64,000 bases of DNA from assembly GCF_017695975.1 (NCBI RefSeq), contig NZ_JAAORN010000001.1:124001-188000 (forward strand), read 5' to 3'. The notes under the pieces were generated by a model. It was not told the origin of the DNA, did no database searches, and saw nothing but the letters and a program-made list of their open reading frames with translations. Shown one piece after another: positions 17,277 through 21,468 of this stretch. Each line of letters opens with the position of its first letter. Position 1 is the first letter of the stretch. Made by a program: the position numbers and the translations under genes. This DNA is from Prochlorococcus marinus CUG1417 (GTDB taxonomy: Bacteria; Cyanobacteriota; Cyanobacteriia; PCC-6307; Cyanobiaceae).

Positions 17277-18023
17277 ATGGCTCTATCTAGTCAAACTAAA
17301 GAAACAATACTTGTCGCAGATGACGAGGCAAGTATTAGAAGAATTCTGGAGACACGCCTCTCCATGATTGGCTACAAAGTTGTAACTGCAAGTGATGGCA
17401 AAGAAGCACTAAAGTTATTTAAAGATTATGAGCCAGATTTAGTTGTACTTGACGTCATGATGCCAAAGTTAGATGGCTATGGAGTTTGTCAAGAATTAAG
17501 AAAAGATTCTGATGTCCCAATTGTTATGTTAACTGCATTAGGAGATGTTGCGGATAGGATTACGGGTTTAGAATTAGGAGCCGATGATTATGTTGTCAAA
17601 CCATTTAGTCCTAAGGAATTAGAAGCTAGAATAAGGTGTGTTCTACGAAGAATTGATAAAGAACAACTTCCTGGAATGCCTAATTCAGGATTAATTTTGG
17701 TTACTGACATCAAAATTGATACAAATCGAAGACAAGTTTTTAAAAGCGATGAAAGAATTAGATTGACTGGTATGGAATTTAGTCTTTTAGAGCTTTTGGT
17801 AAGTAGGTCAGGCGAGCCATTTAGTAGAGGAGAAATTTTAAAAGAGGTTTGGGGATACACTCCTGAGAGACATGTAGATACAAGAGTAGTGGATGTTCAC
17901 ATATCAAGATTAAGATCGAAACTTGAGGCAGATCCAGCAAATCCAGAATTGATACTAACAGCAAGGGGTACAGGATATCTTTTTCAAAGGATTGTTGATA
18001 TTGCTCCTTATGACGGTAAATAA
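17277..18023 (+). CDS. rpaB: OmpR-family response regulator RpaB
   Basis: RpaB is an essential cyanobacterial transcription factor (plastid Ycf27) that controls high-light genes through HLR1 sites. Of the 248 residues, the receiver domain has ADDEASIRRILETRLSMIGY, the phospho-acceptor Asp in VVLDVMMPKLDGYG and Lys in VVKPFSPKELEARI. The winged helix ends with ARGTGYLFQR. These stretches are almost invariant in RpaB. The stop codon is followed immediately by the plsX ATG, so the regulator and lipid synthesis genes appear cotranscribed. No convincing HLR1 repeat was found in its own 107-base upstream region. Confidence 0.95.
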   Translation: MALSSQTKETILVADDEASIRRILETRLSMIGYKVVTASDGKEALKLFKDYEPDLVVLDVMMPKLDGYGVCQELRKDSDVPIVMLTALGDVADRITGLELGADDYVVKPFSPKELEARIRCVLRRIDKEQLPGMPNSGLILVTDIKIDTNRRQVFKSDERIRLTGMEFSLLELLVSRSGEPFSRGEILKEVWGYTPERHVDTRVVDVHISRLRSKLEADPANPELILTARGTGYLFQRIVDIAPYDGK

Positions 18024-19496
18024 ATGGGGAAAGAAACTGTACATAAAATTAACAAGCCTAGAGCTATCAGAAGATTAGTTATTTGGTATAAAAGAAACTC
18101 GGCAGTAACTTCAATAGTAGATACTGCTGCTAGTTCTGCAGTAACGGCTAGTAATGTAGCGGGTAATGTAGTTTCTGGTGCTGGGTCTGTAGTAAGTACA
18201 GCTAGCAATGTTGCAGGTAATGTTGCAGGTAATGTAGTTTCTGGTGCTGGGTCTGTAGTAAGCACAGCTAGCAATGTTGCAGGTAATGTTGCAGGCAATG
18301 TAGTTTCAAGTGCTGAATCTGTTGTAAATACTGCAAGTAGTGTAGTTTCAAATGCTAGTTCAATAGCTAAAAATACTTTACAGCCATTAGTTTTTGACCC
18401 ATTAAAAAGATTACAAAACAATGATAATTTTTTAGAAAAAGAAGAGCATTCGCACTCGAATAGAATTTGGATTGCAGTTGATGGTATGGGCGGAGATTAT
18501 GCTCCTGGGCCAATACTAGAGGGTTGTCTTGAAGCGATAAATAGATTTCCAATAAATATTAAGTTTGTTGGCAAAATTGAAAACGTTAAAAAAGCAGCAG
18601 AAAAAATCGGTTTAGAAGAATTACTTGAAAAAGAAATAGAAAATAATCGTCTTGAATTAATTGATAGTGGAGATCCTATAGGAATGAATGAGGAAGCTAC
18701 TGCAGTCAGAAAAAGGAAAAACGCAAGTATAAATGTTGCAATGGATTTGGTTAGAAATAATGAAGCACAGGCTGTTTACTCAGCTGGGAACTCGGGAGCA
18801 ATGATGGCTTCTGCCATATTTAGAATTGGTAGATTGAAAGGAATTGATAGACCTGCTATAGGAGCATTATTCCCGACAAGGGATCAAACTCGTCCTGTTT
18901 TAGTTTTAGATGTTGGCGCAAATACTGATTGTAAACCATCTTATCTCCATCAGTTTGCTCTTTTAGGTAATATTTATGCAAAAGATGTCTTACAGGTAAA
19001 GAAACCGAGAATTGGCCTTTTAAATATTGGAGAAGAAGAATGTAAAGGTAATGATTTATCTCTTAAAACATTTGAACTACTTTCTAATGAAAAAAGTTTT
19101 GATTTTGGAGGTAATTGTGAAGGCCGAGATGTATTATCAGGTAGTTTCGACGTAGTAGTCTGTGATGGATTTACCGGAAATATATTATTGAAATTTCTTG
19201 AATCTGTTGGAGGAGTTTTATTAGATATTTTGAGATCTGAGCTGCCACGTGGAAGGCGGGGGAAAGTTGGTTCTGCTTTTTTAAAAAGTAATTTAATCAG
19301 AATTAAGAAAAGGTTAGATCATGCCGAACATGGAGGAGCTTTATTACTTGGGGTAAATGGAATTTGCGTTATTGGTCATGGAAGTAGCAAATCTTTATCA
19401 GTAGTTAGTGCTCTTCGCTTGGCTCACTCTGCAGTTAACCATGGTGTTATGGACAATTTAAATCAACTTCAAAAGCTTCAAGTTTTAAATTCATAA
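18024..19496 (+). CDS. plsX: Phosphate acyltransferase PlsX with a repetitive N-terminal extension
   Basis: PlsX converts acyl-ACP to acyl-phosphate, the first step of phosphatidic acid synthesis with PlsY. The catalytic core starts at about residue 146 (NRIWIAVDGMGGDYAP) and runs to the end, containing SAGNSGAMMASA, GALFPTRD and VCDGFTGNILLK. The first 145 residues are not part of the normal enzyme (family length is about 330-350; here 490). They comprise a basic start (KPRAIRRLVIWYKRNS), then Ala/Val/Ser/Gly-rich 22-residue repeats at 48-113, then an acidic linker. No internal Met allows a shorter start before MGGDY. The extension could be an amphipathic membrane-binding or partner-binding segment. 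It directly follows rpaB and precedes fabH. Confidence 0.92.
   Translation: MGKETVHKINKPRAIRRLVIWYKRNSAVTSIVDTAASSAVTASNVAGNVVSGAGSVVSTASNVAGNVAGNVVSGAGSVVSTASNVAGNVAGNVVSSAESVVNTASSVVSNASSIAKNTLQPLVFDPLKRLQNNDNFLEKEEHSHSNRIWIAVDGMGGDYAPGPILEGCLEAINRFPINIKFVGKIENVKKAAEKIGLEELLEKEIENNRLELIDSGDPIGMNEEATAVRKRKNASINVAMDLVRNNEAQAVYSAGNSGAMMASAIFRIGRLKGIDRPAIGALFPTRDQTRPVLVLDVGANTDCKPSYLHQFALLGNIYAKDVLQVKKPRIGLLNIGEEECKGNDLSLKTFELLSNEKSFDFGGNCEGRDVLSGSFDVVVCDGFTGNILLKFLESVGGVLLDILRSELPRGRRGKVGSAFLKSNLIRIKKRLDHAEHGGALLLGVNGICVIGHGSSKSLSVVSALRLAHSAVNHGVMDNLNQLQKLQVLNS
18165..18362 (+). repeat. Tandem 66-bp repeats inside plsX
   Basis: Two nearly identical 66-bp units (18165-18230 and 18231-18296) encode the same 22 residues, beginning NVVSGAGSVVSTASNVAG and ending NVAG. 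A third, diverged unit follows (18297-18362). The first two differ at only a few bases. The near identity implies recent duplication or ongoing exchange, so copy number probably varies between strains. The local G+C is higher than in the flanking genes. Confidence 0.85.
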
Positions 19497-19549: not shown

Positions 19550-20557
19550 TTGGAAGGACTAAATTTAAATCAGATTGGAGTATCATTCAAAGGAAGCGGA
19601 AGTTATGTACCTGATCAAATTTTAACCAATCAAAAAATTAGCCAAAAGGTTGATACAAGCAACGAATGGATAAAATCTAGAACAGGCATTTCTGAGAGAA
19701 GAATTTCTAGCTTAGAAGATAATGTTACTGAGATGGGTTATAAGGCGGCTTTAAACGCTGTAGAAATGGCTAATTGGGATATTAAAACGATTGATTTAAT
19801 TGTTTTAGCTACTTCTACTCCGCATGATTTATTTGGATCAGCGCCATCCATTCAAGCTAGATTAGGGGCAGCTAATGCTGTTGCTTTCGATTTAACTGCG
19901 GCATGTAGTGGCTTTTTATTTGCCTTAATTACAGCCTCACAATTTTTAAAAGTGGGTACTTTTAAAAGGGCTCTTGTTATAGGAGCAGATCAACTATCAA
20001 GCTTTGTTGATTGGAATGATAGAAGAAGTTGTATTCTCTTTGGAGATGGTGCAGGTGCAATAGCAATTGAAGCCACTACTGAATTTGATAATTTAATCGG
20101 TTTTGATATGAGAACTGACGGAGAAAGGGGTTCTTTTCTTAATCTTCCATCAAAAAATAATAAGGATTCAATAATTGATAACATTGATTTTTTAAGTGGA
20201 GCTTTTTCTTCAATCAAAATGAATGGTCAGGAAGTGTATAAATTTGCAGTTAGAGAAGTCCCGATAATTCTTGAAAATTTGTTTAAAAAAATGAATTATT
20301 CTTCCGATGAAGTTGATTGGCTTGTATTGCATCAAGCTAATCAAAGAATATTGGATTCTGTAGGAGACAGGTTAAAAATTCCTGGAGAAAAAATTCTTAG
20401 CAATTTAGAAAAATATGGTAATACTTCAGCAGCAACAATTCCACTAGTGATGGATGAGGCTATTAGAAATAATAGAATTAAACAAAATGATATTATTGCC
20501 ACAAGTGGTTTTGGTGCTGGGTTAAGTTGGGGTGCAGCCCTCATTAAATGGGGTTAA
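19550..20557 (+). CDS. fabH: Beta-ketoacyl-ACP synthase III
   Basis: FabH starts type II fatty acid synthesis by condensing acetyl-CoA with malonyl-ACP. It has 335 residues with the catalytic triad Cys119 (TAACSGF), His261 (LHQANQRI) and Asn291 (YGNTSAA). The C-terminal GFGAGLSWGAALIKWG is typical. The reading frame begins at a TTG (19550); the next in-frame Met is Met62 inside the fold, so the TTG start is likely correct. It lies 53 bases after plsX and is followed by fabD. Confidence 0.95.
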   Translation: MEGLNLNQIGVSFKGSGSYVPDQILTNQKISQKVDTSNEWIKSRTGISERRISSLEDNVTEMGYKAALNAVEMANWDIKTIDLIVLATSTPHDLFGSAPSIQARLGAANAVAFDLTAACSGFLFALITASQFLKVGTFKRALVIGADQLSSFVDWNDRRSCILFGDGAGAIAIEATTEFDNLIGFDMRTDGERGSFLNLPSKNNKDSIIDNIDFLSGAFSSIKMNGQEVYKFAVREVPIILENLFKKMNYSSDEVDWLVLHQANQRILDSVGDRLKIPGEKILSNLEKYGNTSAATIPLVMDEAIRNNRIKQNDIIATSGFGAGLSWGAALIKWG

Positions 20558-20562
20558 AAAAA

Positions 20563-20567
20563 AGGAG
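20563..20567 (+). promoter_or_regulatory. Ribosome binding site deciding the fabD start
   Basis: AGGAG lies 4 bases before the ATG at 20572 and just after the fabH stop. It favours that ATG over the in-frame ATG at 20548, which has no comparable site and would overlap fabH. Confidence 0.65.
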
Positions 20568-20571
20568 CATT

Positions 20572-21468
20572 ATGACAGTTGCATGGGTATTCCCTGGACA
20601 GGGTTCGCAAAAAATCGGAATGGCAAAACAAATTGAAAATTTGCCCAACACAAAAGAGAGGTTTAGTTATGCATCTGAGATATTTGAGAGGAATTTATTT
20701 GAAATTTGTGAGTTAGATACTGAACTAAAAAATCCTCTTTTTGATTTAAATAACACAATAAATACACAAATTTGTCTTTTTTTAATTGAATCAATCCTAT
20801 TAGATGCATTAAAGGAAAATGGATTGAAACCAAATTATGTTGCTGGTCATAGTCTAGGAGAAATTACTGCACTATATTGTGCGGATGTTTTTTCATTCGA
20901 AGATTGTGTTTCTCTTATAAAAGAAAGGTCGCAATTAATGGTAAATGCCGGGAAAGGATCTATGGCAGCAGTAATTGGTTTTGATAGAGATCAACTTGAT
21001 CTATTAGTTCAAAAAATTGATGATATTGTAATTGCCAATGATAATAGCTCTTCCCAAGTTGTCTTATCAGGATCTACTGAAGCATTAGATAATTTATCAA
21101 GAGAAATTTCTTGTAAAAGATTCTTGAAATTAAATGTTTCAGGTGCATTTCATTCACCATTTATGAATGAACCTTCATTAAAATTTTCTGAGTATTTAAA
21201 AAAGATTAAATTTAATAATCCATCTTTCCCAGTTATAAGTAATTATGAACCTTCACTCTGTAGTGATTCAAACGAGCTTAAAATTAGATTAGAAAAGCAA
21301 ATGTGTAATGGAGTGAGGTGGCGCGAAACTATGGATTTAATGGCCAGAGATAGTGATCTTCATATTGTTGAAATTGGCCCTTCTAATGTACTAAGCGGTT
21401 TAGTGAAAAGACATCTTAAAGATGTAAAAATTTCTCAAGTATCATCTTCTGATCAAATATTTTATTAA
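20572..21468 (+). CDS. fabD: Malonyl-CoA:ACP transacylase
   Basis: FabD loads malonyl groups onto acyl carrier protein for fatty acid elongation. With the start chosen here it has 298 residues and begins MTVAWVFPGQGSQ, exactly where the family begins. The active-site Ser94 is in GHSLGE and His194 in GAFHSPFM. An in-frame ATG at 20548 would add eight residues (MGLKKRSI) but overlaps fabH and lacks a ribosome binding site. It lies between fabH and plsC in the lipid cluster. Confidence 0.94.
   Translation: MTVAWVFPGQGSQKIGMAKQIENLPNTKERFSYASEIFERNLFEICELDTELKNPLFDLNNTINTQICLFLIESILLDALKENGLKPNYVAGHSLGEITALYCADVFSFEDCVSLIKERSQLMVNAGKGSMAAVIGFDRDQLDLLVQKIDDIVIANDNSSSQVVLSGSTEALDNLSREISCKRFLKLNVSGAFHSPFMNEPSLKFSEYLKKIKFNNPSFPVISNYEPSLCSDSNELKIRLEKQMCNGVRWRETMDLMARDSDLHIVEIGPSNVLSGLVKRHLKDVKISQVSSSDQIFY

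Follow-up and report, generated by a model that had tools for sequence, protein, structure and literature searches.

PlsX of Prochlorococcus and its family carries an N-terminal extension whose spacer lengths cluster at whole alpha-helical turns

The plsX locus and its product

The window (i.e., the whole 64,000-nucleotide stretch of Prochlorococcus marinus CUG1417 DNA analyzed here) contains plsX, whose ATG directly abuts the stop codon of the response regulator gene rpaB, followed by fabH and fabD (Table 1). PlsX converts acyl-ACP to acyl-phosphate, which PlsY then uses at the membrane; a PlsY gene is present elsewhere in this 1.65-Mb genome. The PF02504 profile matched the predicted PlsX with an E value of 2.8e-104 (349.1 bits against a cut-off of 29.1; profile positions 3 to 322 of 324), TIGR00182 scored 364.3 bits (cut-off, 243.4), and the solved PlsX sequences 1u7n, 1vi1, and 6a1k matched as well. 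The top NCBIfam score was that of the 440-position NF010419 (892.7 bits; equivalog cut-off, 729). Judged by these matches, the product is an otherwise ordinary PlsX enzyme, with putative acyl-ACP:phosphate transacylase activity, that bears an N-terminal extension. The first-pass annotation of this DNA had placed the start of the core at about residue 146; the catalytic domain begins slightly later, nearer residues 148 to 150. Its statement that no internal start codon would permit a short form was borne out by a scan of the sequence: no in-frame ATG, GTG, or TTG was found between plsX codons 2 and 154, and the first start-type codon after the initial ATG is codon 155 (ATG), which falls within DGMGGD.

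TABLE 1 Coordinates of plsX, its neighboring genes, and the segments of the PlsX extension in the window
Feature	Coordinates	Strand	Basis
rpaB, response regulator, upstream neighbor	17277..18023	+	NF045944, 384.9 bits
plsX (490 aa; stop codon included)	18024..19496	+	Open reading frame, PF02504, NCBIfam
Variable tip, residues 1-11	18024..18056	+	dN/dS of the stretch before the basic motif; alignment
Basic/aromatic segment PRAIRRLVIWYKRN, residues 12-25	18057..18098	+	IRRLVIWYRRN or IRRLVIWYKRN in 127/145 family loci
Ala/Val/Ser/Gly/Asn spacer, 93 residues (26-118), predicted continuous amphipathic helix	18099..18377	+	Hydrophobicity spectra, lengths, tree
66-bp tandem repeat array within the spacer	18151..18331	+	Tandem Repeats Finder, sequence
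LQPLVFDPLKRLQ segment, residues 119-131	18378..18416	+	dN/dS; counts of variants
Loose linker, residues 132-147	18417..18464	+	dN/dS
PlsX catalytic domain PF02504, residues 150-476	18471..19451	+	Pfam
fabH, downstream neighbor (start codon uncertain)	19550..20557	+	TIGR00747, 350.3 bits
fabD, gene after fabH	20548..21468	+	TIGR00128, 277.6 bits

Architecture of the extension

The extension has a constant build in the GTDB family to which the genome belongs: a basic segment (IRRLVIWYRRN) is followed by a spacer of Ala, Val, Ser, Gly, and Thr, a short segment (LQPLVFDPLRRLQ), a loose linker, and the enzyme. Both flanking segments were present in 145 of the 152 family loci examined, from which four loci cut by contig ends (L202, L203, L205, and L206) and three duplicates (L053, L207, and L208) had been omitted beforehand. 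Among these 145 loci, the basic segment reads IRRLVIWYRRN in 117 and takes the KRN form in 10, [AST]AVT[ST][LI]V[DG] follows it as a rule before the spacer begins, and LQPLVFDPLRRL is exact in 88, close variants also being present. The spacer of the window is 45% hydrophobic, contains no aromatic residues (0%), and is only 3% charged; in the family loci, a single proline occurs in 6,583 spacer residues.

Repetition before the PlsX core, as first described from the sequence, is present at the DNA level. The array found by Tandem Repeats Finder (2.7 copies; 90% matches) had the highest score (292) of the 26 rows for the window. Adjacent 66-bp stretches are identical at 63/66 positions when the first starts at 18151, at 64/66 from 18173, at 59/66 from 18195, and at 65/66 from 18162, the best register. 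The GC content of the array is 0.43, compared with 0.36 for the plsX gene and 0.31 for the window. The 22-residue protein repeats reported initially also exist, but they are a Prochlorococcus elaboration of an extension found family-wide. The suggestion of variable copy number holds between species, as the spacer has 71, 75, 79, and 93 residues in 36, 40, 1, and 3 of 80 named loci, respectively, and ranges from 53 to 93 residues across 10 genomes of the genus of the window. Prochlorococcus spacers of 93 residues occur in L055, L057, L113, and the window, and their extra units differ in sequence, which suggests separate expansions to an equal length. On the minus strand, a 137-aa open frame that is itself repetitive runs over the repeats (18008-18421); it shows no sign of being a gene and was taken as a mechanical by-product of the repeats.

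No Pfam family matched the extension of the window at an E value of ≤0.01, and the same was true of 20 relatives. SseC (E value of 0.047) and DUF3659 (0.19), both below the cut-offs, were taken as compositional matches to the window extension, and the best solved sequence, a 4-aminobutyrate transaminase (0.024), was taken as a chance match. No second copy of the extension was found in the same genome (single best match; E value of 0.43), and no account of this extension was found among the papers listed by literature searches.

Distribution and origin of the extension

Of the 201 family genomes, 190 yielded PlsX, as did 193 of the 194 genomes in the class sample, which includes 21 family members. 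An extension profile built from 20 diverse members matched 176 of the 201 family genomes (12 of them weakly, with E values of 2e-5 to 1e-8) and 121 of the 131 family genomes that are at least 90% complete. In the class sample, it matched all 21 family members and none of the 173 genomes outside the family; in the phylum sample, the 6 matching genomes among 146 all belong to the family. Because the profile covers most of the family and none of the other class genomes, the extension represents a trait of the family as a whole, neither an artifact nor a peculiarity of one strain.

The 12 weakly matching genomes belong to the genera g24, g32, and g44, and the four that were read (L196 to L199) have the basic segment without the spacer and without LQPLVFDPLRRLQ. 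Another 20 family genomes were listed as lacking a match; eight are from genus g9, and several others are incomplete. In both g9 loci read (L200 and L201), the PlsX N terminus is RRRAIRRIRRIRRLSR. An RRIRRIRRLSR-like N terminus without the usual spacer characterizes these two loci and L204 (g49), possibly as a divergent or degenerated form of the module. The PlsX match of L204 is split in two pieces, and this locus forms a very long branch in the core tree.

The outgroup set comprised 28 loci from 25 genomes, of which 22 loci had a visible upstream frame; an IRRLVIWY-type segment was absent from all 22. We built a FastTree phylogeny from 135 core sequences, including 27 outgroup rows, as a quick tree in which 42 of the 129 inner branches are open. 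On this tree, two changes account for three states of the extension ("none," "basic segment only," and "full module"), and the seven rows with the basic segment alone diverge outside the 101 full-module rows (support, 87). Six of the 25 outgroup genomes also have rpaB upstream of an extension-less plsX. These loci (L045, L046, L048, L050, L051, and L192) are from outside the family, and fabH is also located downstream of plsX in the first five, the DNA of L192 being too short to tell. Among the nine outgroup loci with approximately 1.5 kb of upstream sequence, rpaB is present in that sequence in five and absent from it in four, so the adjacency of rpaB and plsX is patchy in the outgroup. A plausible origin is that plsX was extended upstream into the rpaB-plsX intergenic spacer. 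A tlr0843-plsX element in another cyanobacterium is named in a paper on noncoding RNAs (PMC2662882).

Carriage by phages was considered and set aside: a search of IMG/VR returned one contig-end fragment (51% identity), and a phage collection returned 11 records with PlsX-like sequence, all with <60% identity and none with a single place covering 80% of the query. These 11 records (Helicobacter, Listeria, Enterococcus, and one other) perhaps contain host DNA at their edges.

Helical periodicity of the spacer

For the window spacer, the hydrophobicity spectrum has its maximum at 99.5 degrees per residue, and 0 of 1,000 shuffles matched the helical moment of this spacer. Repetition inflates this whole-spacer test; therefore, the 22-residue unit itself was shuffled, and 30 of 5,000 shuffles were as good. 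The mean spectrum of the 81 unique spacers from 85 family loci peaks at 100 degrees with a power of 8.99, compared with a maximum of 1.44 in 300 shuffled sets.

Spacer lengths follow the same period. The 145 loci have 20 distinct lengths (i.e., 24, 28, 31, 32, 35, 39, 42, 43, 46, 49, 50, 53, 56, 57, 60, 64, 71, 75, 79, and 93 residues), and, with each counted once and periods of 2.3 to 12 tried, the best period is 3.62 residues (R = 0.80). None of 5,000 random length sets equaled this R at any period tried. In the linker, used as a control, every length from 18 to 26 is taken. Parsimony on the core tree gave 42 spacer length changes over 101 tips, again with a best period of 3.62; steps of 4 and 7 residues occur most often (12 each), 37 of the 42 lie within 0.15 turn of a whole number of turns (versus 32% of sizes 1 to 22), and 0 of 20,000 uniform draws matched the 42 changes at 3.6. 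Concentration of the 20 lengths falls to R = 0.73 at 3.667 residues and 0.44 at the heptad period of 3.5. An 11/3-helix, our initial reading, is possible but not preferred, in view of these lengths and the spectral peaks at 99.5 and 100 degrees.

The direction of the hydrophobic face at the two ends of the spacer was also compared, and the agreement varies with the helical angle assumed. In the 103 spacers of at least 36 residues, which are related and thus do not represent 103 independent cases, the faces of the first and last 18 residues lie within 60 degrees of each other in 102 at 100 degrees per residue, in 100 at 99.4, and in 47 at 98.2. When the spacers were pooled on a helical wheel, Val, Ile, Leu, and Met fell on one side, opposite to Asn, Asp, Lys, Arg, and most Ser; Ala is most frequent at the center of the hydrophobic face, flanked by Val. 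These results strongly indicate that the spacer is one continuous, nearly uncharged amphipathic alpha-helix.

AlphaFold2 gave an unusable model of the full protein (43 alignment rows; mean pLDDT, 45). For the extension alone (21 rows; mean pLDDT, 67), it predicted helices at residues 11-70, 76-123, and 126-132. This model agrees with a helix and is uninformative about membrane or packing. Foldseek found no match to it at an E value of ≤0.001, the hits being mostly helical bundles.

Such a helix may be soluble and pack against itself, the partner helix of a PlsX dimer, or another protein, forming an oligomer or scaffold and no membrane anchor. We regard this reading as unlikely. The lengths fit 3.62 residues better than the heptad, they range from 24 to 93 residues, and the 3% of charged residues differs from the content of usual coiled coils. 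Thus, of the alternatives "amphipathic or coiled" in the first-pass annotation, the amphipathic helix is strongly supported and the heptad coiled coil less favored. Packing would nonetheless account for the Ala-centered, Val-flanked face, as in tightly packed helices; the two long helices of the extension model could fold back on one another; and Bacillus subtilis PlsX is described as a dimer (PMC6702220).

Repeat slippage and selection

Quantized lengths could also arise without selection on phase, if the spacer were a tolerated low-complexity tether, subject to slippage and expansion of turn-sized units, with the flanks alone being important. Slipping units of 4, 7, or 11 residues would keep the lengths roughly in phase anyway. 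When random-sign walks were run along the tree with steps of the sizes observed, 14 of 2,000 reached the observed concentration on distinct lengths and 240 of 2,000 reached it over all tips; slipping turn-sized units thus account for much of the quantization. The predominance of 4- and 7-residue steps, the nearly identical 66-bp units of the window, and the genera that lack a spacer are all consistent with a tether. The scarcity of walks that reach the distinct-length value, the hydrophobic stripe that is coherent across the family, the near absence of proline, and the purifying selection described below argue against it, and as a full account it seems to us quite unlikely. Helical repeat units in the spacer are well supported, and selection on phase beyond these units is suggested.

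We calculated dN/dS with a Nei-Gojobori script for 250 random pairs from each of the two largest equal-length sets (35 and 36 of the 80 named loci). The values for the two sets were 0.19 and 0.21 ahead of the basic motif, 0.044 and 0.051 in the basic segment, 0.071 and 0.062 in the spacer, 0.000 and 0.014 in LQPLVFDPLKRLQ, 0.26 and 0.29 in the linker, and 0.053 and 0.056 in the core enzyme. Purifying selection on the Prochlorococcus spacer is thus about as strong as that on the enzyme (0.06 to 0.07 versus 0.05 to 0.06), and the low values for the segments of the extension imply that it is translated and constrained. The looseness of the linker fits the expectation for a tethered separate module. 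Together with its presence in relatives, this selection answers the concern, raised with the original description, that the extension might be absent from all relatives and result from an assembly error.

A candidate lipid-surface anchor

On balance, we lean toward the view that the extension is a helical module that would anchor PlsX on the membrane near PlsY, with membrane binding, the hand-over to PlsY, and the identity of the membrane all inferred. Residues 1 to 131 would form a lineage-specific module on PlsX, in which the Arg/Lys and Trp/Tyr cluster of the basic/aromatic segment AIRRLVIWYKRN docks the helix onto a lipid surface. The helix would then lie flat, with its Val/Ala face inserted shallowly and Ser, Asn, Thr, and Gly on the other face, and the short proline-containing segment LQPLVFDPLKRLQ and the loose linker would lead to the enzyme. 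PlsX may thereby be kept at the membrane where PlsY consumes acyl-phosphate. The membrane anchor and the scaffold for acyl-phosphate transfer proposed in the first-pass annotation are likewise candidate roles. The length could change by whole turns if, as this arrangement predicts, an unbroken hydrophobic stripe outweighs exact length. The membranes of Prochlorococcus are glycolipid-rich, which would suit an uncharged helix.

Several observations count against this anchor: the spacer is weakly amphipathic and nearly uncharged, the extension model is broken at residues 71 to 75 and could be a hairpin, and the early-branching g24, g32, and g44 loci that were read lack the spacer, with the g9 N terminus differing as well. 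Taken alone, neither the basic segment nor the LQPLVFDP segment has an unusual moment (462 and 388 of 1,000 shuffles as good, respectively). That the N terminus is a Sec- or Tat-like export or insertion signal with no surface anchor is very improbable. The twin Arg and Ala-rich stretch (RRLVI and what follows) is faintly reminiscent of Tat signals, but further Arg/Lys residues come immediately after (WYRRN), a long hydrophobic core is missing (mean hydrophobicity, approximately 0.3), and the acyl-ACP substrate is cytosolic.

PlsX is the link from soluble fatty acid synthesis to the membrane acyltransferase PlsY, and abundant photosynthetic bacteria have fixed a helical module on this link that the other sampled cyanobacteria lack. 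The PlsX enzyme and the NF010419 long form were already known; what is new is that the spacer lengths cluster at whole alpha-helical turns. Such length changes are a footprint that a helix has left in evolution, in a region where a useful structural model is missing, and they predict that insertions of 2 or 5 residues would break function, whereas insertions of 4, 7, or 11 would not. A low-complexity helix growing in a streamlined genome of this size would itself call for explanation.

Comparison with known systems

The catalytic domain resembles that of ordinary PlsX proteins (PF02504 and TIGR00182), from which the window protein differs in having approximately 148 residues ahead of the domain. 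In NF010419/PRK13845 ("putative glycerol-3-phosphate acyltransferase PlsX"), positions 3 to 67 match inside the extension; the databases thus already hold long forms, with no function for the extension. NF010419 exceeded its cut-off in none of 14 named control genomes, including Synechococcus elongatus.

B. subtilis PlsX is a peripheral membrane protein by virtue of an amphipathic peptide (residues 253 to 261), as shown by mutants and fluorescence; the authors of that study state that this tip peptide is poorly conserved outside Bacillus (PMC6702220). The B. subtilis element is nine residues at the tip of a stem inside the domain, whereas the window PlsX has a separate N-terminal module with a spacer that reaches 93 residues in the family. 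By eye, GRRGKVGSA of the window aligns with TLTSKLAAA of B. subtilis, with the lysine kept and Leu254 not, and the tips of outgroup cyanobacterial PlsX are of the ELP[RQK]G type in all 25 loci seen (of 28). That the extension replaces the B. subtilis peptide therefore does not serve as a specific explanation, as extension-less outgroup cyanobacteria have this kind of tip too.

The spacer resembles the helices of perilipin 4 and alpha-synuclein in being long, repetitive, and weakly amphipathic, with almost no aromatic residues and a similar moment; no homology is claimed. The mean hydrophobic moment is 0.28 for the window spacer and 0.24 for the family, and the published values, with the percentages of charged residues, are 0.257 and 15% for Plin4, 0.30 and 24% for alpha-synuclein, and 0.35 and 23% for Plin3 (Table 1 of PMC5889406). 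The window thus lies within the published range and the family mean below Plin4. Perilipin 4 and alpha-synuclein have 11-residue repeats and 15 to 24% charged residues (PMC5889406), whereas the PlsX spacer has 3% charged residues, and its period appears closer to that of an ordinary alpha-helix than to the 98.2 degrees (3.67 residues per turn) of 11-mer repeats. Longer Plin4 helices are reported to target lipid droplets better (PMC5889406), which points to a possible use for lengthening of the spacer. A tentative and, in our estimate, rather doubtful extension of the comparison is that marine picocyanobacteria evolved, in this spacer, a bacterial counterpart of perilipin-4-like helices (i.e., elastic, phase-locked, and almost uncharged) that would position the initial enzyme of phospholipid synthesis at a specific lipid surface, plausibly a glycolipid-rich membrane with packing defects. 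Such a helix may have been built stepwise from the rpaB-plsX intergenic spacer, first as the basic segment and then as the spacer and the second segment, and lengthened in the strongly streamlined Prochlorococcus.
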